Below, piece by piece: positions 7,272 to 37,008 of a stretch of 37,082 nucleotides of DNA. The first letter of the stretch is position 1. Each line of letters begins with the position of its first letter. The stretch is from Desulfobulbaceae bacterium (lineage in GTDB: Bacteria > Desulfobacterota > Desulfobulbia > Desulfobulbales > SURF-16), in the NCBI GenBank assembly GCA_002868945.1, contig PKTX01000069.1, positions 1 to 37,082 on the forward strand. The letters are read 5' to 3'. The notes under the pieces are model-generated. The model had not been told where the DNA came from and did no database searches. It was given only the letters and a program-made list of their open reading frames with translations. Both the position numbers and the translations under genes were made by a program.

Positions 7272-7297
7272 AAGGGCATCTTGAATAAGAGAGATGG

Positions 7298-15731: not shown

Positions 15732-15756
15732 GGTCCTGGCGTCAGGCGCCAGGACC
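15732..15756 (-). terminator. Hairpin downstream of the HD-GYP gene
   Basis: Perfect ten-base arms GGTCCTGGCG / CGCCAGGACC around TCAGG. Read on the minus strand it lies about 100 bases after the HD-GYP stop and is followed by a pyrimidine-rich run (CTTGTTCTACTTTCCCC). A terminator is plausible, but the U-tract is not ideal. Confidence 0.45.
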
Positions 15757-15779: not shown

Positions 15780-15861
15780 CTAGGAGCCTGTCGGACTTAG
15801 ACATAAATCTACTGCAAATTCGAATTTTCGCTACGATTCTCTAAGTCCGACAGGTTCCTAG
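15780..15861. repeat. 82-base palindromic repeat with CTAG ends
   Basis: Arms of 22 bases (15780-15801 and 15840-15861) match with one mismatch: CTAGGAGCCTGTCGGACTTA inverted as TAAGTCCGACAGGTTCCTAG, plus TA/CT at the inner edges. The 38-base AT-rich centre has no coding potential. It has the form of a minimal transposable element. The TAG stop of the HD-GYP gene is its terminal CTAG. Confidence 0.65.
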
Positions 15862-17324
15862 ACCACACGAGGCCGGGCCCGAAATTTTTCGTCCGAGAAT
15901 TCCCGGGCCGTCCGGATGAAGGCCTCTTCCTTGGCGACAAAGGCCTGAATCACGGCCGGATCGAAATGGCTGCCCGCCCCTCGGCAAATAATCTCCCTGG
16001 CCTCGGCGTGGGGATAGGCCTCCTTGTAGACCCGTTTGGAAATCAAGGCGTCATAGACATCGGCCAGGGCCATGATGCGCCCCGCCAGGGGAATATCTTC
16101 CCCCCGGAGCCCCTTGGGATAACCGGAACCATCCCATTTTTCATGATGGCAGTAGGCAATCTGGCGGGCCACCCGGAGAAAGGAGTTGGAGCCGAGAGTG
16201 GCCTCGGCCACCTTGAGGGCATCACCGCCCAGGGTGGCATGGGTCTTCATGATCTCGAATTCCTCCGGGCTCAGACGCCCCGGCTTCAGGAGGATCCGAT
16301 CAGGGATGCCCACCTTGCCGATATCGTGCAGCGGCGCCGACTTAAAGAGCATGTCGATGGCATCGTCATCAAGCCGGGAGGCGTACGTGGCATCCGTGCG
16401 CAGGTGTTCAGCCAGATGCCGCACATAACGCTGGGTGCGCAGGAGGTGCGCCCCTGTCTCATTATCCCTGGTCTCCGCCAGGGAGGCGAGGCTCATGATC
16501 GTCACATCCCTGGTCATATGGAGCTCTTCGGTCTTGTCCTTCAGACCGCCGATCATCAGATTGGTATGTTTGGCCATCACCCCGAACTCGTCATTGGTGC
16601 TCACCGGAACCGAGCCGTCAAAATTGCCGGCCGTGACCTCTTTGAGCACCGAATTTTCATTGTGGAAAAAGGTGTTCAGATTGCGGGTGGCGGAGACGAT
16701 CAGATTCATCGCCAAACCGAGGATAACCACAAAGACAAAGGCCAGCTCACCAAGAATAATGCGGCGGGCCTCCGCCAGGGGGATCTCTTCTCCCACGGTA
16801 AGCAGCCAGTCCAGATCCTTATTCATGACCAGAAAGAGGATGGCCATGGTGAAAAAGACGGTGGCTGTCGCAAAGATGGCCAGTTTGGCAGGCAGGGGGA
16901 AATAGCGATTCTCAGGGTCCAGGTCGATGCGCTTGGCCCTGAACAGAAGGGTGAGCCGCTGCTCATGGGCCAGGGCCATGTCAATGGCCAGAAAGAAACC
17001 CAGGGTGATCATGGCCAGGACAAGCTTCACTCCGCTGCCAAGGGGAAAATCATAAAGCTGCCGATTGAACAGCATGAGAAAAAAGCCAACCAGAACCATG
17101 AGCAGGAAGTCGAGCTGGAAAACGCGAAAGGTCTGCTGCTGATAGGCGGCCCGATCAACAAAAACAGACCACAGCAGCTGCCGGAGCAGCCAGGCCCCAA
17201 CCAGACTGCCGACCAGGGGGGCAAGGAGTTGCGTCATGGACAGGGTTTCCAGAAACGGACAGACCTGGCCGCCATACAGACCGATGACAACAAGCGTGAC
17301 AAGATAGTGCACAACAAGACGCAT
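15858..17324 (-). CDS. Membrane HD-GYP domain protein, probable c-di-GMP phosphodiesterase
   Basis: The 488-residue protein has about six hydrophobic helices within residues 1-200, a HAMP-like linker (~200-250, ending FGVMAKHTNLMIGGL), and a C-terminal HD-GYP domain. The catalytic residues are visible: His333-Asp334 (PLHDIGKVGIPD), His393-His394 and the GYP loop WDGSGYPKGL (397-406), and ADVYDALISKRVYK. HD-GYP enzymes hydrolyse c-di-GMP. The ATG at 17324 is chosen for GGGAGG five bases upstream; the frame stays open to 17426, but that would overlap the upstream AhpD-like gene. The C-terminus ends at a TAG supplied by the palindromic repeat at 15780-15861, so a longer native tail may have been lost. 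Confidence 0.9.
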   Translation of the reverse strand: MRLVVHYLVTLVVIGLYGGQVCPFLETLSMTQLLAPLVGSLVGAWLLRQLLWSVFVDRAAYQQQTFRVFQLDFLLMVLVGFFLMLFNRQLYDFPLGSGVKLVLAMITLGFFLAIDMALAHEQRLTLLFRAKRIDLDPENRYFPLPAKLAIFATATVFFTMAILFLVMNKDLDWLLTVGEEIPLAEARRIILGELAFVFVVILGLAMNLIVSATRNLNTFFHNENSVLKEVTAGNFDGSVPVSTNDEFGVMAKHTNLMIGGLKDKTEELHMTRDVTIMSLASLAETRDNETGAHLLRTQRYVRHLAEHLRTDATYASRLDDDAIDMLFKSAPLHDIGKVGIPDRILLKPGRLSPEEFEIMKTHATLGGDALKVAEATLGSNSFLRVARQIAYCHHEKWDGSGYPKGLRGEDIPLAGRIMALADVYDALISKRVYKEAYPHAEAREIICRGAGSHFDPAVIQAFVAKEEAFIRTAREFSDEKFRARPRVV

Positions 17325-17400
17325 GGATCCCTCCCCCGGATTACAATCAGCTTTTCCCGGCCGCCCCTGCGACCGGCAAGCACACGGCCGTGGCACCATA

Positions 17401-17871
17401 CTATACCATGCCGCCACCCATAACAAAGGCGGACCCCAAAAAATCCCGGCCGCCCGCCATCTTCATCCCGGTGGGAAAGGGAAGGAGAGGCGGCATGATA
17501 TCGCACGGCACCTTGAGCGAATCGGCAATGGCGTTGAAACTGCAAAAGAGATCCACCACTTTTTTGACGTCGTTTATTTCATCCTTGCTGGCGCCGACCA
17601 TTCTGGCCATGCTCTCATGGGCAAGGGAACAATATTCACAGCCATTAACCATGGAGACCACCAGGGCGATAATCTCTTTTGTCTTGCGATCCAGCGCCCC
17701 GTCGGCGAGCATGATCTCTTTTTCCCGCTGCCAGTTCAGGGCCAGCCAGTCCGGGTCAACAGCGGCCTGGGCCTTGAAAAAATTGGGCACCATGCCAAAT
17801 TTTTCCTGGATATCGGCGTAGATCTCCTTTGTCTTGCCGGTGGCGTCCTGTTCATCAATCAAACTACTCAT
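17401..17871 (-). CDS. AhpD-like carboxymuconolactone decarboxylase family protein
   Basis: The 156-residue all-helical protein carries the AhpD/CMD core with the redox motif CEYC-SLAH (Cys78, Cys81, His85), as in alkyl hydroperoxide reductase partners, preceded by GALDRKTKEIIALVVSMVNG. A role in peroxide or thiol chemistry is typical of this subfamily; the decarboxylase function needs other residues and is less likely. The ATG at 17871 has AAGGAG eight bases upstream. It lies 76 bases upstream of the HD-GYP gene on the same strand, so they may be co-transcribed. A family-2 repeat lies immediately upstream (17943-18157). Confidence 0.85.
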   Translation of the reverse strand: MSSLIDEQDATGKTKEIYADIQEKFGMVPNFFKAQAAVDPDWLALNWQREKEIMLADGALDRKTKEIIALVVSMVNGCEYCSLAHESMARMVGASKDEINDVKKVVDLFCSFNAIADSLKVPCDIMPPLLPFPTGMKMAGGRDFLGSAFVMGGGMV

Positions 17872-17942
17872 ATCTGCTTCTCCTTGTGTGGTTATGCATC
17901 CCGGCAAGCCGCCGCAAAAAAAGGTCAGACGGCTTCCCTAAC

Positions 17943-18157
17943 AGCCCGTTGAAAAAGGTAGCGAGCGCAGCTGAGGCAAGGAAAAATGAGGCGAAAAATG
18001 CGCGCCCGGAGGAGGTAAGGGAGCCTGCGACACTCCGAGTACCCTTGGGGTGCAGTTTACATGGGGTTTAGGAGCATTTCGGAGTCTCGCTCCGCTCGCT
18101 TAGCTCAAGCCGAATTTTGACGCCGCATCAGCAAGCGCAGTAGTTTTTCAACGGGCT
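17943..18157 (+). repeat. MITE-like repeat, family 2, complete copy
   Basis: A 215-base element with perfect 14-base terminal inverted repeats AGCCCGTTGAAAAA (17943-17956) and TTTTTCAACGGGCT (18144-18157); similarity of the flanks extends a few bases to C/TTAA/GC. A central run of about 83 bases, starting GGAAAAATGAGGCG, is identical to the copy at 23361-23555. No transposase gene inside; the apparent peptides in both copies are by-products of the shared DNA. Confidence 0.8.
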
Positions 18158-18871
18158 GCTAAAGTAGGGGCTGCTTTTGAGCCGACCCTGATAGGCGGTG
18201 AGGCTGTGGGTCTCAATTGCCATCAGGGCGGCAGAGGCCTTGAACTGTTCCAGGTCATACTGGCAGAGAAAGAGCCTGTTTGGCTGGGTCAAAGAACTAT
18301 TTGTGCAGTTTTCGAGGACGGTTACGTCAGCCAGACTCCACTGCCTTGCCAAGGCCCAGGCCATATCGCCAAGAAGCCGGCAGCCGTTTGCCCTCTCATC
18401 GTGATGAAGGACGTCCGCCATGAAGCGGATCTGCTCGGCAGGAGTGTCCTGGCCGGTGTCCGTGACAATAAGGCCGTCTCTGACAAGCCGGTTGACCGGA
18501 AAGCCTGAATCCTCAAGGCCGCCAAGCAGGCGCGCCAACCTGGTGCCGGTGGACACCACCACTATTTTTTCACCTCGGACCAGGCCCTGACCCAGATAGG
18601 AGATACCATCAGTCAGGCATTCATCCCTGGATTGGTAAAAATGGGCAATATGGGCCGAGGCCGCCACCCGGTGCGCGCCAATACCCAGCGGCTTCATGTC
18701 AGGGTCGGCCTGATGCAGAAAATGGCTGAGATCCTGCTGCGTGAAGCGTCTCTCCTTGTTGCCGCCCACCCGGAAACAGGGCAGTTTCCCGGCATTGGTC
18801 CAACGCCGGAGCGACATTTCCGAGACATTCAGGAAGGCAGCCGCCTCTTTGATCGTTAATAGTTTTTCCAC
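18128..18871 (-). CDS. MerR-type helix-turn-helix regulator with MEDS (DcmR-like) sensor domain
   Basis: The 247-residue protein begins with an excisionase/MerR-like DNA-binding domain (LLTIKEAAAFLNVSEMSLRRW, then GKLPCFRVGGNKERRFTQQDL). Residues ~80-235 form a MEDS domain (HIAHFYQSRDECLTDG, LGQGLVRGEKIVVVST, FLCQYDLEQF, THSLTAYQGR), named from methanogen and methylotroph DcmR-type sensors that respond to small molecules. The GTG at 18871 is chosen because AGGAGG lies four bases upstream. The last ~10 residues (SPLKNYCAC) and the TGA stop are encoded by the end of the family-2 repeat, so the native C-terminus, expected right after SPYF, has been replaced. An operator-promoter dyad lies at 18899-18927. 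Confidence 0.85.
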   Translation of the reverse strand: MEKLLTIKEAAAFLNVSEMSLRRWTNAGKLPCFRVGGNKERRFTQQDLSHFLHQADPDMKPLGIGAHRVAASAHIAHFYQSRDECLTDGISYLGQGLVRGEKIVVVSTGTRLARLLGGLEDSGFPVNRLVRDGLIVTDTGQDTPAEQIRFMADVLHHDERANGCRLLGDMAWALARQWSLADVTVLENCTNSSLTQPNRLFLCQYDLEQFKASAALMAIETHSLTAYQGRLKSSPYFSSPLKNYCAC

Positions 18872-18898
18872 ATCTCCTCCTGCCGCACGCGGCACAAT

Positions 18899-18927
18899 CT
18901 TATACAACCTTGAACAAGGTTATACAA
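18899..18927 (-). promoter_or_regulatory. Promoter with operator dyad of the MEDS regulator gene
   Basis: On the minus strand TTGTAT (18922-18927) and TATAAG (18899-18904) are separated by 17 bases, and the spacer holds the dyad AACCTTG-N2-CAAGGTT. The same stretch shows a direct TTATACAA repeat at both ends. A dyad centred between the -35 and -10 boxes is the typical layout for MerR-family control, although MerR spacers are usually 19-20 bases. Autoregulation is inferred. Confidence 0.6.
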
Positions 18928-19257
18928 TGCTACACAGGAAGTCAACGAAAGAGACGCCCTCACCAGGGAGAAATCGTCCTTGAAGGGAAGAAGGGAGGCT
19001 GACAAGAGGGCCTAAAGAGAAATTGGCCAGAGCCGGGAAGGGGTGGCCGCACGCAGGTCATCGCTGCACATGGCAAAGGGGGCAGCGATGACCTTTACCG
19101 TGGAGCTGCGCTCGACAAGCAACGGTACATTTTCAGTCTCCCCAGGGCAGACGAGCCGAAGGAGGGGCCTGGCCGGAGCCACCGACCAATGCCGCCCACC
19201 ACCATGCCGTGGTGCAGAACAACAGTATAAAAACTAGAGATCCTCGTACTTCAAAGA
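18928..19257. other. Intergenic region with one strong hairpin
   Basis: About 330 bases between the stress-protein gene end and the regulator promoter, both leftward. It holds perfect 13-base arms AGGTCATCGCTGC (19055-19067) and GCAGCGATGACCT (19082-19094) around a 14-base loop, with no U-tract on either strand. Nothing else recognisable. Confidence 0.45.
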
Positions 19258-20121
19258 TCAAGGCACAAGCCACAGCGCCGCTTTGTCGATTTCGTTGAAG
19301 ACATTCTTGCATTTGGAGCCTACGATCTTTTCATACATGCCCTTATCTGCGCTACGGCCGATGGAACCCATGGCAATGGCGGCGTAGCGCCCCTTGTCTG
19401 ACTCAGCGAGAATGGCGGAGGCCACCCCCAGCAGAGGCTTGACCACCACTTGCCTGATTCGCCCGGCACCGATGCCATAGGAGGCGAAAATTTCCCCCAC
19501 CCGAGCGAACATTTTCTGCTTATCTACCCCTTGTCCCTTGTCGGCATGAAACAGGGTGACACCATGCTGCTCCTCACCCTGCAAGATATAACCGACATGA
19601 TCAGCCACCTTTTCGCCCACCTCCGAACCATCCAAACAGACCAGCACATCCTTGCGGCCCTCTTCAGGGTCACGGCAAAACCAGACAGGGCTGGCCAGCT
19701 CCTTTTCCAGAAGCTCGTGCCCCTTATTCCCGCAGATAATATCCTCCACAAAGGATGTGCTGCGTTTACCTAATATTACCGCATCATAGAGGCTGTTTTG
19801 GGCTTCATGGATGATATCCTGTATTGTGCCGGCCTGCATCCTGCGCGTCACCTGCTTGATCTGTTTTTCGGCAAAGCCCTTCTTTATCAAGTTGCTCCGG
19901 CAAAGCGCCAGGGCCTTTGCCGCCCCGGATGGAAGAGCGATATTATCGCCCCTGGCATTATCCCATAACTCACTTACCTGCTGCTCGGCAGCCACTCTGC
20001 CGACAAGGTAAAAAAGGGTAAGCTCAACATATTGCCGATTATGAAAAAAAGAGCTGACAAACCGCACTCCCTGGCTGCAGCTCGTGATATCGCGAAGGGT
20101 TACAAGTAAGCTTTTTTGCAT
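19258..20121 (-). CDS. Universal stress protein (tandem UspA-like domains)
   Basis: The 287-residue cytoplasmic protein has two UspA-type alpha/beta domains. The second is clearest: KDVLVCLDGSEVGEKVADHV, a VTLFHADKG strand, an ILAESDKGRYAAIAMGSIGR segment resembling the nucleotide-binding loop, and SKCKNVFNEIDKAALWLV. The first domain (residues ~1-140) is more diverged, with YDAVILGKRSTSFVEDII. The ATG at 20121 has GGAG nine bases upstream; another ATG five codons earlier lacks a ribosome site. It is the last gene after the MscS channel and the CASTOR-like channel on the same strand, fitting a shared stress or turgor theme. The partner or ligand is unknown. Confidence 0.8.
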   Translation of the reverse strand: MQKSLLVTLRDITSCSQGVRFVSSFFHNRQYVELTLFYLVGRVAAEQQVSELWDNARGDNIALPSGAAKALALCRSNLIKKGFAEKQIKQVTRRMQAGTIQDIIHEAQNSLYDAVILGKRSTSFVEDIICGNKGHELLEKELASPVWFCRDPEEGRKDVLVCLDGSEVGEKVADHVGYILQGEEQHGVTLFHADKGQGVDKQKMFARVGEIFASYGIGAGRIRQVVVKPLLGVASAILAESDKGRYAAIAMGSIGRSADKGMYEKIVGSKCKNVFNEIDKAALWLVP

Positions 20122-20211
20122 GGTACGACACTCCATTGCTATGACGGTCTACCCTTTCATTGCTACTGGAAGGAGCAAACCTGTAAATCTTGTTATGGAC
20201 AACTCTGCCGG

Positions 20212-21051
20212 CTAATTGTCCGCAATTTCTCCCTGTTTCGCCATGTTCACCATATGCACATCACGCTGGGGGAAAGGAATTGTAAGTCCTACCCCTTCTA
20301 CCTCTTCCTTTATCCGTCTCGTGAGATCCCAACAGGTAGGCCAGTAGTCATCCAGACTGCTCCAAGCTCTGATCTGCAGGTTGACGGAGCTTTCCCCCAT
20401 GGCCACCACCATGGTTTGCGGAGCAGGGTCTTGCAACAGCCGCGGCTCTGATCGGCAGATTTCCTGCAAGACTTTCAGTCCGGCGTCAATGGAATCGCTG
20501 TAAGCAATACCGACAACGACATCCATACGCCTCTTGCCGTTACGGGTATAGTTCTTTATGGCGTTGTTCCAGACCAGACCGTTTGGCGCTGAAACGTATA
20601 GGCCGTCAGCTGTTTCCAGGATAGTGGTAAACAAATTAATCTCCCTGACCTTGCCCGCCACGGCGCCAAATTCTATATAATCCCCAAGCTGAAAAGGCCT
20701 TAAAGTAAGGAGCATGACACCTGCGGCGATATTACTCAATGTCCCCTTAAGGGCCAGGCCTACTGCCAGCCCGGCTGCACCGAGAAGGGCGATGATGCTG
20801 GTGGTATTGACTCCGAAAATATCAAGGATGATGATGATGCCGACGGCATAGACAAGGTAGCTGGCCGTGGAGGAAAGGACAGAAACAACGGTGGCATCAA
20901 GACGCTTACCACCGTGTCTCATGATGCGGCGGATAATGCCGGCCGCCAGGAGGCTGGCAAAGAGTACAGCTATAACCAGCGTACATTTATAACCTAAACT
21001 CAAAATCAATTCGGAGTGATTACCCCAAAACCCAGAGACTTGCTCTTGCAT
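20212..21051 (-). CDS. Small-conductance mechanosensitive channel, MscS family
   Basis: The 279-residue inner-membrane protein has three helices (residues ~17-40, ~62-82, ~84-116) and the pore helix signature TTSIIALLGAAGLAVGLALK followed by TLSNIAAGVMLLTLRPFQLGDYIEF, then the beta domain (GKVREINLFTTILETADGLYVSAPN) and the C-terminal alpha/beta domain. MscS channels open under membrane tension and release solutes during osmotic downshift. GAGAGGAA precedes the ATG. It lies 109 bases downstream of the CASTOR-like channel gene and about 90 bases upstream of the stress-protein gene, all leftward. Length and core are normal for a minimal MscS. Confidence 0.95.
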   Translation of the reverse strand: MQEQVSGFWGNHSELILSLGYKCTLVIAVLFASLLAAGIIRRIMRHGGKRLDATVVSVLSSTASYLVYAVGIIIILDIFGVNTTSIIALLGAAGLAVGLALKGTLSNIAAGVMLLTLRPFQLGDYIEFGAVAGKVREINLFTTILETADGLYVSAPNGLVWNNAIKNYTRNGKRRMDVVVGIAYSDSIDAGLKVLQEICRSEPRLLQDPAPQTMVVAMGESSVNLQIRAWSSLDDYWPTCWDLTRRIKEEVEGVGLTIPFPQRDVHMVNMAKQGEIADN

Positions 21052-21160
21052 TTCATTTCCTCTCAGAAAGGTAAAAGCCCAAACAGCCCCACCCTCGGAA
21101 TTGTTGACAACATCTGTGAACTAAATAGTTCCTGTCCAGCTCTCTCGTTGAGCCTGCCGT

Positions 21161-23101
21161 CTATACATAGGTCGTCAGCACCACCACTTCATCGTCCTTG
21201 GTCAGGGACCAGCTCGCTGTCTTATCCGGATTAAGCTCTATTTCAGCTCCCAGGGCCTTTTCTCGGGCCGTGACCTTGACGCCCAAGGCAATCTCGCCGC
21301 GGGCCGATACACTGTCCTGGATATCGGCAAAGCTCATGGTTTTACCGGCCAGGCCATACTCATGCATGGGCCGGAAGTAGATCTCAGCCCCACCTGAGCT
21401 GAACAACTCCTGGAAGACGGTGTTCAGTTCAGGCCGCATGGCGATATGGGCCAGCATGTGACTTAAAATCATGGGACTGACAATCACCTCCTCACTCACC
21501 CGACTGAATAACGAGTGGTTGCCCGGATCGACGAGTTCCACAAGAATGTCGGGCTTGTAGGTAACTCCTTTCAGCAACTCCCTGACCAGCATGAGGCCGA
21601 GAATGGTGCGGGCATCGACCTCCTCTTTGGTGAGGAAATAATCACTGCCCAGAATGAGAATATTATCATACATATCCGGGCTGACCTCTTCCAGGTCGGA
21701 AGGAGCGCCATAATCACCAATAAGATGCCGTAACTTGACGCGCTGCCCGGCCGTGCTATATTTCTGGAGCTTGTCCTCCCTCTCTTCCTCTGGCACCCGG
21801 GAGAGGATATCCACCTCAAACTTCTCATCCTGATACGAGGCAAGCTCATGGACAAGGGCAGGGATCATACCCGACCAACCCAAGATGAGCAGGCGCCGGT
21901 GCTTTTTCTCATGCTTGAATTGGACAAAGTGACCTCTCTTCTGCGCTACCCTGTCATACCTCTTCGAGGGAGCGGTATCATTATGACTGCGCGCCAGCAG
22001 CACCAGAAAGTCTCCCTCTCTTATCACAAAGCCGACCGGCGGATTAAGGTGCGGGTCTAGGCCTCGGTTTGAGGGCCTCAGGACCCCGAGAGGAACGGCC
22101 TTGGGGAAGGCTGCAAAGGTTTCTTCAAAGGTCATGCCGGCAAACTGGGAAAGGTGACGGATCCGCAACTCATTGCCGTCACCATAAGTTAAAAGTTCAT
22201 TAAAAACATGGGAGAGAGACTGATGCCGGATATTCTGGGCCAACAACAGACTAATGGTGGAGTCGCTGGGAATCACTTCGATCCTGCCTGAATAAGCGGA
22301 CCTGGCCACCACCACCTTGCGGGCGTCAAAGATCTCCGTGACCAGAAAAGGCAGATTGTGGCCTTTTTCAGCGAAAGCCTGCATGGAGAGTAAGGCCTTC
22401 ACCGTCCGCATGTCTCCGGCATCGGCACCTCCCTCAAGAAAATTCATGCCCGGAAAAATAATGGCCGCGGCGTTGAGAAACGCTACCCGCAACAGATCCT
22501 CATTTTTCAATGGATTTCCGGAACGAAGAATGATCTGTCGCTCATCCCATTCCTCGGCCAGGGTTTCCTGTAAGTCCTGGCGCAGCTGGACATTGACCTC
22601 TTCGGCCAAAATAACAATACGCAGTTTCCTGGCCCCCTGCTTGACCAGAAAACGCTTGAGGCGTTCTTCGGATCGCACCAGTTCTCGCACAATGATGGGG
22701 GTACGATTGGTCCAACCCAGGATGACGACATGACCCTTCTGGACAATAGGTGTGGTGCCCAGCTCCAGGACGCGGATGGTATTGTTGAGCCACTGGGTCA
22801 TGATGGCGATGAGGGAGCCCATGAAAATAACATAGCCCAGTACCGTGATTATGGTTGAGAGGACGCGCAGGCCGGTGCCCTTGTCATCCCCGAGATAGCC
22901 GGGATCGGTAAGACGGAGAAATGCCCACCACATGGATTCGCTGTAAGAACCGAATTCTGCCGTGGCCTGGAGGGCCAGATAACCGCCAACAATGGAGACC
23001 AGACCCACCATGGCGGCAATAAAGAGCAGCCGGTAATGGGCCCCCCTGAGGATAAAACGCTCCAGATAAAAACGAAACTTGTTTGAAGCTCCTGCTATCA
23101 C
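21161..23101 (-). CDS. CASTOR/POLLUX-related cation channel with tandem RCK-like domains
   Basis: The 646-residue protein has helices at ~24-46 and ~80-104 with a pore loop between (SMWWAFLRLTDPGYLGDD, 57-73), the arrangement of CASTOR/POLLUX channels (Pfam PF06241), whose plant members conduct cations in the nuclear envelope. From residue 122 two Rossmann-type regulatory regions follow: GHVVILGWTNRTPIIVREL and HRRLLILGWSGMIPALVHEL, and a C-terminal TrkA-C-like part. The start is GTG with GAGGAG six bases upstream. Ion selectivity of the bacterial members is not well established. It stands upstream of MscS and USP genes on the same strand. Confidence 0.88.
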   Translation of the reverse strand: MIAGASNKFRFYLERFILRGAHYRLLFIAAMVGLVSIVGGYLALQATAEFGSYSESMWWAFLRLTDPGYLGDDKGTGLRVLSTIITVLGYVIFMGSLIAIMTQWLNNTIRVLELGTTPIVQKGHVVILGWTNRTPIIVRELVRSEERLKRFLVKQGARKLRIVILAEEVNVQLRQDLQETLAEEWDERQIILRSGNPLKNEDLLRVAFLNAAAIIFPGMNFLEGGADAGDMRTVKALLSMQAFAEKGHNLPFLVTEIFDARKVVVARSAYSGRIEVIPSDSTISLLLAQNIRHQSLSHVFNELLTYGDGNELRIRHLSQFAGMTFEETFAAFPKAVPLGVLRPSNRGLDPHLNPPVGFVIREGDFLVLLARSHNDTAPSKRYDRVAQKRGHFVQFKHEKKHRRLLILGWSGMIPALVHELASYQDEKFEVDILSRVPEEEREDKLQKYSTAGQRVKLRHLIGDYGAPSDLEEVSPDMYDNILILGSDYFLTKEEVDARTILGLMLVRELLKGVTYKPDILVELVDPGNHSLFSRVSEEVIVSPMILSHMLAHIAMRPELNTVFQELFSSGGAEIYFRPMHEYGLAGKTMSFADIQDSVSARGEIALGVKVTAREKALGAEIELNPDKTASWSLTKDDEVVVLTTYV

Positions 23102-23185
23102 CCTGTTCTCCTCTGCACTGTTCTCAGCCTGTGATTGTCAGAAGCTGAAAAATCATCGCCGCTGCCTTGAAAATCTTTATGAAGG

Positions 23186-23215
23186 GTCTCTTGAATAATT
23201 AGCTGTTTCGGAGGC
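23186..23215 (-). repeat. Terminal fragment of a family-1 repeat
   Basis: Read on the minus strand, CTCCGAAACAGCTAATTATT followed by CAAGAG matches one end of the family-1 elements at 24525 and 30735 (CTCCGAAATAGCAATTATTC in the former). It directly abuts the last recognisable codons of the broken YeeE gene, so it probably removed that gene's 3' end. Confidence 0.5.
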
Positions 23216-23724
23216 CCGCCCCTCGCCAACAGCACCACGCGACGTCCCCGGACAATAGCCGAGCACTGCCCAGCCCAGGCCAAAGAGCACGCCTCTAATA
23301 ATATTACCACCAAGTGTGGTTATTTTAATAGACAGTTTGGCAAGACCAAAATCCTTCAAGAGGAAAAATGAGGCGAAAAATGCGCGCCCGGAGGAGGTAA
23401 GGGAGCCTGCGACACTCCGAGTACCCTTGGGGTGCAGTTTACATAGGGTATTCGGAGTGTCGCTCCGCTCGCTTAGCTCAAGCCGAATTTTGACGACGCA
23501 TCTGCAGATGGCAAACGAAGAGAGACCTTCGAGTGCAGTAGTTTTTCAACGGGCTGGTAAAGCCAACCATTCCTGTCAGCACGTTGGAGAGCATAAACTT
23601 GACGATGGTCATATCAAGCAAGCGTAAGGCGCCAAGCTTGCCTATCATATCGTACAACCTGCCCACCATGCAGGAAAAAACCAAAGAATATCCCTGCCAA
23701 AAGCCCATGGATCAAAATGTTCAT
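23216..23724 (-). pseudogene. Broken YeeE/YedE-family (DUF6691) membrane protein gene
   Basis: Three pieces in order match one small membrane protein family. Piece 1 (from ATG 23724) reads MNILIHGLLAGIFFGFF, HGGQVVRYDRQ. Piece 2, in another frame, reads GALRLLDMTIVKFMLSNVL, TGMVGF. Piece 3, beyond a family-2 repeat (23361-23555), reads FGLAKLSIKITTLGGNIIRG, VLFGLGWAVLGYCPGT, GAVGEGR. A one-base insertion near 23634-23638 explains the frame change. The family's last ~30 residues are missing, replaced by a family-1 repeat end. YeeE/YedE proteins import thiosulfate or related sulfur compounds. Frameshift, insertion and truncation together make a functional product very unlikely. GGAG-type signals before the ATG are absent or weak. 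Confidence 0.75.
23361..23555 (+). repeat. MITE-like repeat, family 2, left-truncated copy
   Basis: Begins within the shared internal segment (GGAAAAATGAGGCG) and runs to the terminal TTTTTCAACGGGCT at 23542-23555. The left terminal repeat and about 30 bases beside it are missing. About 83 bases are identical to the copy at 17943-18157. It interrupts the YeeE-like pseudogene. Confidence 0.8.
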
Positions 23725-23860
23725 TCCCGGCAGTGGTCGAGGCCAGCCATGACCAAGGCGCTCGACTCGCTGTTTGTCGTTGCCAAACAAGGCAACTATC
23801 CGATATCTTAAGATGAAAAAAACGGGGGAATATGCCGTTAAGCAAGGAGCACTATAGAGC

Positions 23861-24496
23861 ATGGAAAACTGGAGCGAGTACGTCAAATTCTTTGCCGCCC
23901 TGCTGGCCATTGTCAACCCCATGGGGGCGGTACCTATTTACATCAACCTTACCGCTTCCCAAAGCCGTTCGCAACGAAACAAGACCAGTAATATCGCAGC
24001 CTTGGCCACCGCTGCAATTCTCCTTACCGTCCTTTTCACAGGCGAATTACTGCTGAAGTTCTTCGGGATTTCCATAGCCTCTTTCCGGGTGGGAGGAGGT
24101 ATCCTCATCCTGCTCATGGCGATTTCCATGCTGCACGCCAAGATGAGCGACGTCAAGCAAACCGAGGAGGAGGCCGAGGATCTGGAGGACAAGGACAACA
24201 TCGCCGTGGTGCCCATGGCCACGCCTCTCTTGGCCGGGCCCGGCGCCATCAGCACCGTCATCCTTTACGCCCAGCGCCAGTCCTCGCCGCAGCACTATCT
24301 ACTGCTCCTTGGCCTCATTCTTTTGCTGGCCTTCGTCACCCTGCTCGTGCTGCGCACGGCGCCGACCATCTCTAGCCTGCTCGGCAAAACCGGAATAAAC
24401 GTGGTAACCCGCCTCATGGGTCTGGTCATGGCGGCAGTGGGAGTGGAATTCATGGCCAATGGCCTGCGCCAACTTTTCCCCCTGCTGGCCGGTTGA
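23861..24496 (+). CDS. MarC-family integral membrane protein
   Basis: The 211-residue protein has six helices in the MarC/NAAT pattern: FFAALLAIVNPMGAVPIY at the N-terminus, FRVGGGILILLMAISMLHA, a charged acidic loop (QTEEEAEDLEDKDN), then the second conserved box VVPMATPLLAGPGAISTVI, and a C-terminal pair VVTRLMGLVMAAVGVEFMANG. The family was named for multiple antibiotic resistance but has no proven transport function, although neutral amino acid transport was proposed for one member. GGAG lies 11 bases before the ATG, longer than usual. It is the only rightward gene between 13.9 and 28.3 kb, and a family-1 repeat follows it. Confidence 0.9.
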   Translation: MENWSEYVKFFAALLAIVNPMGAVPIYINLTASQSRSQRNKTSNIAALATAAILLTVLFTGELLLKFFGISIASFRVGGGILILLMAISMLHAKMSDVKQTEEEAEDLEDKDNIAVVPMATPLLAGPGAISTVILYAQRQSSPQHYLLLLGLILLLAFVTLLVLRTAPTISSLLGKTGINVVTRLMGLVMAAVGVEFMANGLRQLFPLLAG

Positions 24497-24524
24497 TCAG
24501 GTGTCAGCTGCCAACAATCCTTCT

Positions 24525-24690
24525 GGCCATCTTGAATAATTGCTATTTCGGAGTCTCGCAGGCTCGCTTACCTGTCCGATTTTTTCGTCGCTACGAAAAT
24601 AAAAATCCTCACATATGCCCGATATGCTCCGGTTTTTATTTTCTATGCTTCTCAAACTCGAAAAAAATATCTGATTATTCAAGATAGCCT
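24525..24690 (+). repeat. MITE-like repeat, family 1, copy B
   Basis: Ends CTGGCCATCTTGAATAATTG and GATTATTCAAGATAG; between them TTTCGGAGTCTCGC, TTTTTTCGTCGCTACGAAAA, CACATATGCCCGATATGCTC and TTCTCAAACTCGAAAAA. Copy C at 30590-30735 is the same element inverted and shorter by the TTTCGGAG segment. Its right end donates the TGA stop of the DUF21 gene (24679-24681). Confidence 0.75.
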
Positions 24691-25698
24691 TCTTATTGAA
24701 ATGCCTCGCAGCAAGCGGCCAAGGATATCGGCGCCGGTAATCACCCTTCGGTCCTCAGCCCAGATCAACACCAGATCATAATCGATGACGTCATCCTCAC
24801 CATGGCTGCTACCCACTTGCAACATGGAAAGAACTTTACCCAATGGTTTTTGGAGATCCCTTACCACAATGGGTTTATGACAGTAAGGCAGAGGCGTAGG
24901 ATAGGTCTTTCTGGCAAAGGCGTCGCGCAAAAAACGATCGGCATCCAGGGCGTAAACCGGCTCCTGCTGTTCATTGACAATGATCACCCATTTGCGCTGT
25001 GAGCTGGCCACCGCCATTAAAAAGGGGTCGGTATCGGAATAAATGTAGCGGGGAAAGACGGGCAGGCCATCGGGGCCGCTAGGTAACTCTATAATACTTT
25101 TGGGGTCCACCTTTTCGCCTTCCTCGGCCACTGCCAGGTCGTCGATGGCCAGGAAATTGAGGGCCCCCACCCCCTCCACCTTGTCGATCTCGGCATCCTC
25201 GGAAACAATATGCTTTTTGATCAGACTGCGCATTTCCTGCTCCTTGAAAAACTGAACCTGCTCGTGCCCCAGCATCCAGTCGAGCATCAAGGCTGAGGGC
25301 TTGGCCAGGGGGTAGAGCAGCAGTTGATAAAAACGCAGCAGGGGATAGAGGGTGGAGGCCATGCGCAGGGCATTTCTGGAAAAATAGGCCTGAGGAAAAA
25401 TCTCCCCCAGAAAGGTAATGACAAAGGTGGAGAAGATAAAGGCGCTTAGTCCTGCCATCACCGAATTAGAGATCAGGGTGAGTAGAACATTAATGGCCAC
25501 ATTACCCCAGAGGATGGTGGTAAGCAGGAAGTTAGCGTCCTTCCGCAGATTGATCACCCTTTGGGCATGCCTGTTGCCGGAGAGCTTCTCCACCTCCAGA
25601 CGTAAGCGGCTGACACTGAAAGCCGCCAAATTCATGCCGGAAAAAAAGGCTGATTGCGACACACAGACGACAATTCCTATCCAGAGGATGATCTCCAT
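24679..25698 (-). CDS. DUF21/CNNM-type membrane protein with CBS-like domain
   Basis: The 339-residue protein has the CNNM transmembrane domain (residues ~1-165: FFSGMNLAAFSVSRLRLEVE, RKDANFLLTTILWGNVAINV, FSTFVITFLGEIFPQAYFSR), then a pair of CBS-like repeats (~205-330) containing IYSDTDPFLMAVASSQRKWV and KVLSMLQ. Relatives (CorB/CorC, CNNM) handle Mg2+ or Co2+ and respond to ATP-Mg. The ATG at 25698 has only a weak AGAGAA signal; a longer frame would run into the psiE-like gene, 13 bases upstream, so translation coupling is likely. The last codons run into the family-1 repeat, whose TATCTTGA end supplies the stop; no CorC_HlyC domain is present, which the native gene may once have had. Confidence 0.85.
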   Translation of the reverse strand: MEIILWIGIVVCVSQSAFFSGMNLAAFSVSRLRLEVEKLSGNRHAQRVINLRKDANFLLTTILWGNVAINVLLTLISNSVMAGLSAFIFSTFVITFLGEIFPQAYFSRNALRMASTLYPLLRFYQLLLYPLAKPSALMLDWMLGHEQVQFFKEQEMRSLIKKHIVSEDAEIDKVEGVGALNFLAIDDLAVAEEGEKVDPKSIIELPSGPDGLPVFPRYIYSDTDPFLMAVASSQRKWVIIVNEQQEPVYALDADRFLRDAFARKTYPTPLPYCHKPIVVRDLQKPLGKVLSMLQVGSSHGEDDVIDYDLVLIWAEDRRVITGADILGRLLRGISIRRLS

Positions 25699-30589: not shown

Positions 30590-30735
30590 GGGTATCTTGA
30601 ATTATGAGATTTTTTGTTCGAGTTTGAGAAGCATAGAAAATAAAAACCGCAGCATATCGAGCATATGTGAGGATTTTTATTTTCGTAGCGACGAAAAAAT
30701 CGGACAAAAAAGCAATTATTCAAGATGGCCAGACT
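30590..30735 (-). repeat. MITE-like repeat, family 1, copy C (inverted)
   Basis: Read on the minus strand it runs from CTGGCCATCTTGAATAATTG to ATAATTCAAGATACCCG, matching copy B for most of its length (TTTTTTCGTCGCTACGAAAA, CACATATGCTCGATATGCTG, TTCTCAAACTCGAACAA) but lacking the TTTCGGAGTCTCGC segment. It lies between the divergent genes mntP and tex. Confidence 0.75.
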
Positions 30736-33279: not shown

Positions 33280-34077
33280 TCAAGCGCTTGGTTGGAATTC
33301 CATTTTCAATTCCTTTCTAATTTGGGTCCATTTCTTTGTTAATGAAGAGTTGAGTTCGTTAAAAACTTTCGTTGATAAAAGTAACCCTGCTGAAGATTTG
33401 GCCGACTCATAAGCAACAAAGCTATCAAGAACCGTTGCAATGGCCCGTGGAGATTCCGCACCAATATCGTGCAAAAAATGTGTATGAAGGCGGTCATATG
33501 TTCTTTCATGCCTCAACCGTAGGACTTCTAAGTTCAACCACTGAGCAATAATTTCCCCGGAAAATATAACCTGCGTTATCCAGGTGAGAATTTCTAAATT
33601 ATTATGTCGTAATGAAAATGCCAACAGCCATATAACCGCATAACCTCCCGTAAATGTACGTTTTTTGTGTAGCATTTTTTCCGCAACTTCTTTGCTGAAA
33701 AATGAGTTCTCCATGGTGTTAGCACCAAGGCGTTGTAATGAAGGAGTATAGTCATTGTTGTAATACAAAGAGGTTTTATCATGACACAGAGGAGTGCCAA
33801 AAGCATCTGACAGCATTTGCTTTCTACGCATCCTCTCAGCCTTGGGTACTAAATAGAATCTAGATATTTGTGAAATGGAGAAGTATAAAATGACTGATAC
33901 GATGAAGCTTGATTGCAAAGAGCATTTTACTAACTCACCAAAATTTGAATAGTATGGCATGCATAGGGACAGAATAGAAATTAGCCAGAATAGCCATGCC
34001 GCAAGCTTTTCAAATTTAACAGCTGGTTCGTAGTATTGTGCGACCTCATCAATTCTGTTTTCTATTGTATTGGTCAT
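33280..34077 (-). CDS. S-4TM family membrane effector (CBASS)
   Basis: The 265-residue protein has two pairs of membrane helices, ~26-45 and ~52-73, then ~146-162 and ~167-188, with a cytosolic middle segment (RRKQMLSDAFGTPL, YYNNDYTPSLQRLGANTMEN, SFFSKEVAEKML) that matches the S-4TM family (SMODS-associated 4TM, PF18159). These are predicted pore-forming effectors that respond to a cyclic nucleotide and kill or arrest the infected cell. The gene overlaps the CD-NTase gene by four bases (ATGA), placing it as the partner effector. The DNA is AT-rich compared with tex and its other neighbours, in keeping with recent transfer. The exact ligand is unknown. Confidence 0.85.
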   Translation of the reverse strand: MTNTIENRIDEVAQYYEPAVKFEKLAAWLFWLISILSLCMPYYSNFGELVKCSLQSSFIVSVILYFSISQISRFYLVPKAERMRRKQMLSDAFGTPLCHDKTSLYYNNDYTPSLQRLGANTMENSFFSKEVAEKMLHKKRTFTGGYAVIWLLAFSLRHNNLEILTWITQVIFSGEIIAQWLNLEVLRLRHERTYDRLHTHFLHDIGAESPRAIATVLDSFVAYESAKSSAGLLLSTKVFNELNSSLTKKWTQIRKELKMEFQPSA

Positions 34078-34859
34078 AACGCAGGGACTATTTTCTTGAT
34101 TTCAGCTTCAGCCGTAGCCGGCATTCCATCATTTTCATACTGTTTTGCATTTTCTGCATATTTTTTAGCCCTTACTACTCTATCTTTGGTGTTTTGAGAA
34201 CTCTCATATGAACAGTTAAAGTCATTCCAAAAGGCATAGAAATAGTCTCTTAGAGTAGTGCATGACCAAAAGCATTTTCCGACAATATATTCCTCAATTG
34301 AAAACGATGTAAAAAGATGACCTTGCGTCGCATTCCAATATTTAATAAGACGCACTAAAGGTTTGATCTGATAGTTCTCTGCTTTGTTTTTGTCCTGAAT
34401 TGCTTGGTTTGCGCCTGATGGATTTGTAGCTACCCATTCCTGCCATGACGATGCTGGAGAGGGAATTTGATAACCATAACTATAAATGGCTGGTACTAAT
34501 TCAAACTTGATATGATTTAGGGACAGCACTATCGTCGGGCTTGATTGGGATATTTCAGAAGTCGAATATTTTGCCGCGGCAAACCTTCTCAACCGGTCAA
34601 GATAGGTCTGAGGTTTCTTTTGCCCATCAGAAGTGTCAAAAACAATCATATAGTCAATGTCTGAGTTACTATCAGCCTTTCTCGGTAAGATTGTCCCACG
34701 AGTGTTTGAACCAAATTGAAAATGGCTGGTTATATTATTTCCAAAATATGCATCGAGTCTTGAAGACAATGTTGTGATAGATCTGGAGATATCCGTTTTT
34801 TCAGTTTCAGAAAGAACAAGGCTACTTGCCGTTGTTGTAAGATGAGTACTTACTGTCAT
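34074..34859 (-). CDS. CD-NTase (SMODS nucleotidyltransferase) of CBASS
   Basis: The 261-residue enzyme has the polymerase-beta-like core: the FGSNTRGT motif with Gly50-Ser51, Asp67-x-Asp69 in NSDIDYMIVF, and a third acidic residue Glu120 in IKFELVPAI, so the catalytic triad is complete. A C-terminal helical domain follows (QIKPLVRLIKYWN). Such enzymes make cyclic di- or trinucleotides on phage infection. AAGGAG precedes the ATG by four bases. The sensor and E1/JAB genes lie upstream on the same strand, beyond a 327-base gap with its own promoter candidate, so the enzyme may be expressed apart from them. Product and clade cannot be assigned from sequence by eye. Confidence 0.92.
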   Translation of the reverse strand: MTVSTHLTTTASSLVLSETEKTDISRSITTLSSRLDAYFGNNITSHFQFGSNTRGTILPRKADSNSDIDYMIVFDTSDGQKKPQTYLDRLRRFAAAKYSTSEISQSSPTIVLSLNHIKFELVPAIYSYGYQIPSPASSWQEWVATNPSGANQAIQDKNKAENYQIKPLVRLIKYWNATQGHLFTSFSIEEYIVGKCFWSCTTLRDYFYAFWNDFNCSYESSQNTKDRVVRAKKYAENAKQYENDGMPATAEAEIKKIVPAL

Positions 34860-34908
34860 TTTTTCTCCTTATGCTTTGCAACATGGTGCTATACAACACG
34901 GGCTAATC

Positions 34909-34936
34909 GGTATAGGCTGCGTGCAGCATATCCCAA
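34909..34936 (-). promoter_or_regulatory. Possible promoter of the CD-NTase/S-4TM pair
   Basis: TTGGGA and TATACC, each four of six matches to the sigma-70 consensus, spaced by 16 bases and about 50 bases before the CD-NTase start. Chance matches of this quality are common in AT-rich DNA. Confidence 0.3.
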
Positions 34937-35104
34937 TCGGGCCCGTCTGCGTAATATTTTTATGGATGCTAATATGTTGATAACATTTGAATATCTTTAA
35001 TGGAAGCCCAAAAGTCAATTGGCAATCTTAACCGTTTTGCAGAAAGCGCAGGTTAACATTATTCCTGAAAAGACATGGTCAGATGTGACACTCACAGCAG
35101 GAAC

Positions 35105-35145
35105 CTCAACCTAGGGTGAGGTGAAAAATTCCTGTAGTTGGATGT
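35105..35145 (-). repeat. CBASS-flanking repeat, copy 2
   Basis: Counterpart of 33168-33208 in the same orientation, 34 of 41 positions identical. It lies about 40 bases beyond the JAB gene stop, so each gene pair of the locus is followed by one copy. Confidence 0.6.
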
Positions 35146-35186
35146 AATAATTATGTCCACAATTTTAAGAATTGCAGATTAAAATT

Positions 35187-35675
35187 TTACCCATAAACCT
35201 TTATGCTCATCTCTATATAATTAGGCACTCTACAGAACAAAAAATCCCTATCAGAGTAACGCCAAATTGAGAACTCAGCAGGTTCACTACATGCAAGAAC
35301 AGCCATGATTGGTTGAGCAATTCTTGCCTCTGTATGTCTTGCAATTCGCCGCAAGGTTCTTTTGTCCTTACGACTTAATAAAGTTTTCCCAAGCGGGTGA
35401 GTGTGCCAGTCACCAAGATAGGTATCGAGCTGCCCCGACTCTCTATAGATTTTAGCTATTTGTTGTTCCTGAAAAGTAACGTCCGGAATATATCCGCAAG
35501 GTTTATGTACAGCATTTGGTCCAGGACCTATAACATTGGTCACCACAAGATCTTGACCATCCTTAGCCTGGTAGCCCATAAAAATACCACCAGTTTCATT
35601 TGGAAACTTGTCCTGTGCTTCCATTAACAACTCTTCAAAAGCTACCTCAGCAATCCAACAGTTGTCCTTAATCAT
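35187..35675 (-). CDS. cap3: JAB/MPN-type isopeptidase (Cap3-like) of CBASS
   Basis: The 162-residue protein has the JAMM metalloprotease signature: Glu27 in NETGGIFMGY, then His91-x-His93-Pro and Ser101, Asp104 in HTHPLGKTLLSRKD. Prokaryotic JAB enzymes of type II CBASS (Cap3) cleave the CD-NTase from proteins to which Cap2 has linked it. The start overlaps the E1 gene by eight bases, so the two are coupled. No membrane segments. Related JAB proteins also occur with other ubiquitin-like systems, but the adjacent CD-NTase gene favours CBASS. Confidence 0.88.
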   Translation of the reverse strand: MIKDNCWIAEVAFEELLMEAQDKFPNETGGIFMGYQAKDGQDLVVTNVIGPGPNAVHKPCGYIPDVTFQEQQIAKIYRESGQLDTYLGDWHTHPLGKTLLSRKDKRTLRRIARHTEARIAQPIMAVLACSEPAEFSIWRYSDRDFLFCRVPNYIEMSIKVYG

Positions 35676-37008
35676 TAGCGCATCGACAGTCTGGGTGTGG
35701 GTCTATTTTAAAAGTTGCCCAAGTATGAGGAATTGGAGAACCATCTCCATCTCGAAGATGAAGAACAGACAAATCCCAGGGCAAAGCAGGATAGCCGCCT
35801 TCATTATCTTGGGTCAGGGTCGACACTGCAGCCCTTACTCCTTCAAGAGCTATCTGTTGAGCATCGAACCCTGCACCGACATATGTAACATCGCCGCAAC
35901 CTTTTGGCTGAACAAAGCCACTTTCATCTGCTGGAGGCCTCATTTTTTTATTTTTTGCAAAAAAATGTCTGTAGCACCCCCAACAACCGGCAGTGCTTTG
36001 AGGAGAAATTCTAATTACAATTCCACCCCAAGCGCCTTGAGTCGTCGAAATCCCCACATAGGGGATTTTTTGAGCTGCTGCCAAATCTGAAAGTAAATGT
36101 TGAAGGCCTAGTTCTGTTGTTGCATCGTAAATCATATCAACATCTTTAAGAATATCTCTTAAAACAGCAAGATCCGTATTTTCCTTTTTTGCAGCTAGAC
36201 TTGTTATCCCAAGCCTATGGACAACATCTCTCGCCTTTGTGTAGGGATAGTTTTTACGAATAAATTTTGCAAGATGAACAACTTTAAGTTGCCCGGCCGC
36301 GTCCATACCAAATGGCCATCGAACTGCCGTACCGGGGTCAAAAAAATCGTGATCAAGCATTCGAATTTCTCCAACACCGCACCGGGCAAATTCCAAGATA
36401 CTTGGAGCCCCTAAGCAACCGGCACCAAAAACAGCAATTTTTTTCTGTTGCAGGAGATCAAAAAAAGGTACACGATGAGCCATGTCGACACGACCAGCAT
36501 ACACTGGGCGTACCAAAGCGTTATGTTCTTGATGATTCTTATTGACCTTTTGAAGGTGTCTCATCAGAAATACCCAGCCATCTTGTTTTTTTCGTAAAGA
36601 ATATTCTTCCGGAAAAACGACACCAACCATGGTCATTGACGTTTTGTCGTTCACCTTGGTCTTGCGTGTTTTGTGAAGGAAGGGATTTTCAGATTTAATA
36701 GTTCGCCAAAATAAACTCGGGTCATCAGTATTTACAGGTGAACCTCGCCTTACCCATTTCCCTTCAAGCGTGCAAATAAATTTATTTTGAGAACACTCTT
36801 CATCGTTTTCAGCTAGAGTATTTTTATCACCATCGAGTATACGCAAAAGGGTAAATACATTTTTACCATTATTTCTCATATACCCGACATGGAGATAACC
36901 ACATTCTGCATCAGAAGGAATAGTCATCGCGCTATTGGTTAAAACAATAGCATCAGGTTGATACGTATAATAATCCCCAAAGGGCCAGCTATTCCCGGCG
37001 AACCCCGC
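35668..37008 (-). CDS. cap2: E1-type (ThiF-fold) Cap2-like protein, N-terminally truncated
   Basis: From the first ATG at 36927 the product has 419 residues. Residues ~163-380 form an E1/ThiF adenylation domain: GAGCLG (168-173), LDHDFFDPG, a CWGC pair (Cys315, Cys318), GCGDVTYVGAGFD with Cys344 as candidate catalytic cysteine, and a C-terminal HPDCRC pair for zinc. Upstream lies a MVGVVFPEEYSLR, QDGWVFL linker seen in Cap2 proteins. No E2 domain with its catalytic cysteine is recognisable. The frame stays open without a ribosome site to a TAA at 37009-37011, where base composition shifts, so the ATG is probably not native and the E2 part seems lost or separate. Cap2 normally conjugates the CD-NTase to target molecules. 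Confidence 0.75.
   Translation of the reverse strand, partial: AGFAGNSWPFGDYYTYQPDAIVLTNSAMTIPSDAECGYLHVGYMRNNGKNVFTLLRILDGDKNTLAENDEECSQNKFICTLEGKWVRRGSPVNTDDPSLFWRTIKSENPFLHKTRKTKVNDKTSMTMVGVVFPEEYSLRKKQDGWVFLMRHLQKVNKNHQEHNALVRPVYAGRVDMAHRVPFFDLLQQKKIAVFGAGCLGAPSILEFARCGVGEIRMLDHDFFDPGTAVRWPFGMDAAGQLKVVHLAKFIRKNYPYTKARDVVHRLGITSLAAKKENTDLAVLRDILKDVDMIYDATTELGLQHLLSDLAAAQKIPYVGISTTQGAWGGIVIRISPQSTAGCWGCYRHFFAKNKKMRPPADESGFVQPKGCGDVTYVGAGFDAQQIALEGVRAAVSTLTQDNEGGYPALPWDLSVLHLRDGDGSPIPHTWATFKIDPHPDCRCAND

Follow-up and report, generated by a model that had tools for sequence, protein, structure and literature searches.

The window, by which we mean the whole stretch of 37,082 nucleotides that was analysed, corresponds to contig C79, one of the 83 contigs of a draft genome of 3.7 Mb. 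Three unrelated repeat families, the palindromic F3, F2, and F1, lie at the 3′ ends of three leftward genes, and most called genes in the window are leftward as well. These three genes are an HD-GYP-type gene with MASE10 and HD domains (15858..17324, minus strand), a regulator gene with HTH_17 and MEDS domains (18128..18817, minus strand), and a DUF21/CNNM gene (24679..25698, minus strand). As the preliminary description stated, each of them stops at or just inside a repeat, with stop codons at 15858-15860, 18128-18130, and 24679-24681, respectively. The trio was selected out of about eight copies of the same families in the window. The other copies have no gene stop at their boundary; they comprise a second complete F1 copy in an intergenic position with AGAC flanks (30590..30730), F1 half-copies starting near 7274, 23184, and 28169, and a left-truncated second F2 copy (23361..23556, plus strand). 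Among the 58 genomes searched, none showed a natural empty site for any of the three genes, and no close ortholog was found within the genus. Empty sites were reconstructed by joining the flanks of each element, and the predicted proteins were then set beside more distant orthologs.

F3 is a 74-bp near-perfect palindrome (15784..15857), recognized from its CTAG duplication and its copies elsewhere in the genome. It is flanked by one CTAG target copy on the left (15780..15783) and another on the right (15858..15861). The HD-GYP gene had been described as ending at the CTAG tip of an 82-base palindrome; the place of the stop was right, and the 82 bases proved to be the 74-bp element plus the two CTAG copies. 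The TAG stop lies inside the right-hand CTAG. When F3 was removed and the flanks were joined with one CTAG kept, the 488 residues and the TAG were both unchanged, because the TAG belongs to the CTAG target. Judged from the joined flanks, the HD-GYP stop would have existed before the insertion and served as its target. Beyond F3 lies a terminator-like hairpin (15732..15756, minus strand; a consensus match only), which begins 23 nt past the stop in the joined empty site. Two full-length orthologs (64% and 49% identical) end 2 and 3 residues later, both with TGA. A search of the genome contigs with the HD-GYP sequence retrieved mainly HD-domain relatives, and its hits were set aside.

The F2 element at the regulator gene is 217 bp long (17942..18158, plus strand) and carries CTAA flanks at 17938-17941 and 18159-18162. 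The TGA stop of the MEDS gene lies 31 nt inside F2, and its final ten codons are read from the repeat, as had been noted. Removal of F2 changed the predicted C-terminus from ...PYF-SSPLKNYCAC to ...PYF-REAV; the printed lengths were 229 and 223 residues, and the printed C-termini extended nine and four residues after PYF. F2 is thus inserted about four codons ahead of the reconstructed stop, and a few C-terminal residues are replaced. Among the MEDS orthologs, the closest (61% identical) ends in ...PYF-AGTA, four residues past PYF, which matches the empty-site prediction; a second ortholog (39%) ends about four residues earlier.

F1 at the DUF21 gene spans 165 bp (24525..24689) between TTCT flanks at 24521-24524 and 24690-24693. 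The DUF21 gene does end at this repeat, its TGA lying 11 nt inside, as described; TATCTTGA, which had been taken as the F1 tip, is not the end of the element, since the TTCT duplication begins after AGCC and the true end is therefore 4 bases farther. With F1 removed, the C-terminus changed from ...RR-LS (339 residues) to ...RR-IVGS (341 residues). Here too the insertion is about four codons ahead of the reconstructed stop, with replacement of a few C-terminal residues, and four orthologs (57-64%) have ends ranging from one residue later to six residues earlier than the reconstructed end.

All three families have inverted terminal repeats. In the stretches read first, perfect 4-bp flanks were found in 29 of 49 paired F1 copies, 29 of 43 paired F2 copies, and 9 of 22 paired F3 copies. 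Paired copies span 36-406 bp; they are short, multicopy, and without a transposase of their own, for which they are too small. Matches in the genome numbered 55 F3 tips (up to 3 mismatches), 185 F2 tips (up to 1 mismatch), and 85 F1 half-tips (up to 3 mismatches). The duplicated target of F3 was CTAG in 8 of 9 perfect cases and CTAT in the ninth. That of F2, read at 57 sites, was NTAA-like with C favoured before and G after it, roughly CC-NTAR-GG, and that of F1, read at 38 sites, was a mixture of AT-rich words. The YTAR specificity of IS5-type elements is therefore seen in F3 and largely in F2, and is not seen in F1. A search with PF01609 gave three loci in the genome, none of which lies between a pair of F1, F2, or F3 tips. 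Where two tips with matching flanks were separated by 420-3000 bp, they proved to belong to two adjacent elements or to a gene-free 441-bp F2 copy, and in no case to a parent. Given the F3 copies at contig ends, the parent transposon may be absent from the assembly. Judged by their sequence features, F1, F2, and F3 are MITE-like families; because no parent was found, we claim neither membership of the IS5 family nor an IS5-like parentage of F2 and F3.

Elements with comparable targets are known from other bacteria. MITEPsy1 of Pseudomonas syringae pv. phaseolicola, about 100 bp long with inverted ends, inserts after and duplicates CTAG or YTAA (PMC3189936). It shares these target words and the inverted ends with F3 and F2; it differs in end sequence and in having few copies, and the accessible portion of that report describes no placement at stop codons. 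IS5 duplicates Py-T-A-Pu, mostly CTAG and also CTAA and TTAG, according to the section available (PMC5493358); it is a full transposon with a transposase, whereas no transposase bearing the ends of F2 or F3 was found here. In the excerpted part of a study of Streptococcus pneumoniae, 36 genes take the stop at their extreme 3′ end from a BOX repeat; there was no strong evidence that these genes are truncated relative to orthologs, and the repeats are enriched between convergent genes (PMC3049150). In BOX the stop lies within the repeat, whereas in F2 and F3 copies at distance 0 it is the duplicated target itself. Fusions of bacterial MITEs with reading frames, in which small repeats are read through in host genes, are also covered in the partial text of a review (PMC2229807). 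The MEDS and DUF21 genes resemble these fusions in that the repeat is read as part of the gene, although the fusions reviewed there mostly involve elements with TA ends and families other than F1-F3. From these sources, as far as they were available, repeats that encode gene stops (BOX) and targeting of CTAG or YTAA (MITEPsy1, IS5) are already known. A narrow literature search found no description of a stop codon duplicated as an insertion target.

We then compared the positions of repeats and stop codons across 771,486 bases of genome stretches, in which genes were called by a home-made procedure based on codon usage and long open reading frames. The stretches were picked around repeat copies from BLAST and pattern hits, and the sample is accordingly non-random and centred on repeats, apart from 13 added stretches (L156-L168) that were selected without regard to them. 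BLAST-scored candidates contributed 40 of 313 for F2, 40 of 379 for F1, and 40 of 52 for F3; the F2 pattern hits came from the first 100 of 185 tip places, so that later contigs were under-sampled. Repeat sides less than 150 bp from a stretch end were left unclassed. Copies classed as crossing a gene (22 F2, 7 F3, 27 F1) were judged to be mostly open reading frames running through the element.

In this sample, a gene stop adjoined the element tip, as the duplicated target, in 25 of 105 F2 copies and 8 of 36 F3 copies; no stop codon served as the duplicated target in any of 118 F1 copies. These were all at distance 0 from the tip (25 F2 and 8 F3 sides). No stop was found at distances of -4 to -1, and four F2 sides and one F3 side had a stop at distances of 1-10. 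The F2 stops at the tip were TAA in 17 cases, TAG in 7, and TGA in one, and all 8 F3 stops were TAG; TGA was the commonest stop among called genes overall (291 of 706). It could be argued that the placement is plain coincidence, with random intergenic insertion and three boundary cases singled out for notice. The behaviour of F1 suits such an account, as does the drawing of the trio from about eight copies, yet the spike of F2 and F3 at distance 0, against 7 of 1419 non-crossing random positions, makes it extremely unlikely. A single mechanism common to all three families was likewise considered and dropped, as F1 has no association with stops. The proposal that the elements favour gene ends with a particular sequence thus holds for F3 (CTAG) and F2 (NTAA-like words), at the level of target words that themselves contain a stop, and fails for F1.

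The genome-wide comparison proposed in the preliminary description gave, within this sample, a different answer for each family. For F3, 8 of 29 non-crossing copies were at stops, compared with 30 of 105 CTAG sites outside genes. The F3 rate equals the CTAG background, and the target word together with avoidance of coding sequence is therefore sufficient for this family. Against a motif-weighted background the expectation was 7-12.5%, which counts against equality with chance; the exact CTAG count is preferred for F3, as the motif-weighted background puts weight on many words other than CTAG. For F2, 25 of 83 non-crossing copies were at stops when 10-12% were expected from NTAA or motif-weighted sites, about 2-3 times above chance (p 2e-7 to 9e-6, or 2e-5 to 6e-4 with crossing copies counted as non-stops). 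The later sample alone gave 7 of 29 (p 0.02-0.05). Given this excess, the target word and avoidance of coding sequence may not be the whole story. F2 might genuinely favour stop codons over and above what its target word accounts for, by the same factor of about 2-3, the stop being a harmless landing pad regenerated by duplication; the state of the DNA at gene ends, coupling to the termination of transcription or translation, or better retention could bring this about. When sites 1-30 bp downstream of a stop served as the sole reference, however, the excess was no more than twofold (p 0.08), and selection against insertions near promoters could yield the same pattern. We regard such a preference as rather unlikely; most of the F2 excess may be due to selection near gene ends.

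Whether a gene ending at a repeat differs from its uninterrupted orthologs could be followed in ProB, whose TAA stop another F2 copy (L144) has duplicated as its target. Thirty loci were read out of 55 genomes with a match, and 29 of these were relatives. The position of the last residue is the same in 25 of the 29 relatives, and the other four end 1, 3, 9, and 20 residues later; an F2 tip was found within 600 bp of ProB in none of the 29. One ortholog from the same genus (84%) ends in GTAA, the very word duplicated here, and the other (87%) in TTAA. In all, 33 proteins have a stop that is the duplicated target. Twenty of them were scanned, and in 11 the match to a family model reaches within 5 positions of the model's end (GyrA, YoaA, YgiQ, MurF, TraB, ProB, CydB, BirA, ferritin, an N-acetyltransferase, and thioredoxin); each of the remaining nine either lacked a match or had one that ended earlier. 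For ProB, thioredoxin, and ferritin, relatives in the PDB match to near their ends.

These comparisons bear on the suggestion that the repeats serve as ready-made gene ends, bringing both stop codons and RNA structure, and are retained for ending genes. The MEDS and DUF21 stops do lie inside repeats, and the RNA of each of the three complete elements would fold strongly (z -8.5 for F3, and -5.2 and -5.2 for the other two). However, the HD-GYP gene ends at a stop of its own with a terminator-like hairpin past F3, the MEDS and DUF21 frames would end 4-5 codons on without the element, near where their orthologs finish, and ProB relatives, in which the repeat is lacking, share the final residue position and have a stop of their own, an outcome that the preliminary description had named as refuting its reading. 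No terminator-like match in the gene direction was found within the three repeats. A role of the repeats as terminators was accordingly dropped despite their strong folds, and retention as ready-made gene ends is highly improbable.

On the basis of the duplications, the target words, the reconstructed empty-site proteins, the C-termini of orthologs, and the sample statistics, we consider it very probable that F1-F3 are MITE-like elements making 4-bp duplications, whose placement reflects target word and purifying selection and which have no function in ending genes. The three families would move by cut-and-paste through DDE transposases acting in trans. The words targeted by F3 (CTAG) and F2 (NTAA-like) include TAG or TAA, and in a gene-dense genome stop codons would be among the few matching sites where insertion is harmless, because target duplication keeps the gene's own stop in place. 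In the HD-GYP gene and ProB, a copy probably landed exactly on the gene's own stop and duplicated it, leaving the protein unchanged. In the MEDS (F2) and DUF21 (F1) genes, near misses before the native stop would have led translation into the repeat as far as the first in-frame stop, swapping a few presumably dispensable C-terminal residues. Transposases, selection as a filter, and absence of a terminator role are the parts of this scheme that we infer. Preservation of the stop codon follows from the choice of target. If the target word includes a stop and duplication leaves it intact, mobile repeats would have a simple route to spread without gene damage. For annotation, genes that appear to end in a repeat may be unchanged, as in HD-GYP and ProB, or altered in only a few residues, as in MEDS and DUF21. 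An F2 excess of insertional origin, if shown, would give a measurable example of an element aiming at gene ends, and a true preference would offer a general way of filling a genome without breaking genes.

Several further arrangements were observed. An F3 tip lies within about 150 bp of the end in many contigs of the source genome (L036-L042, L009, L011, L020, L035), as if a longer multi-copy element with F3 ends had broken the assembly. In relatives of the same family (L283, L284, L296, L300, L301, L304), F3-like copies measure about 160 bp, have CTAG-like flanks, and mostly show GAGTCTG in place of GAGCCTG at their ends. Composites of 406 bp, with F3 inside or against F2, are present in contigs C15 and C48 (L013 ~2025-2431 and L021 ~1839-2245). 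In contig C80, two complete F1 copies in the same orientation lie about 85 bp apart (L065 ~2031-2400), each with its own flanking duplication. In the window itself, the segment 32957-37082 contains four long leftward open reading frames (33280-36927) that were missed by codon usage trained on the remaining sample, and these are possibly acquired DNA.
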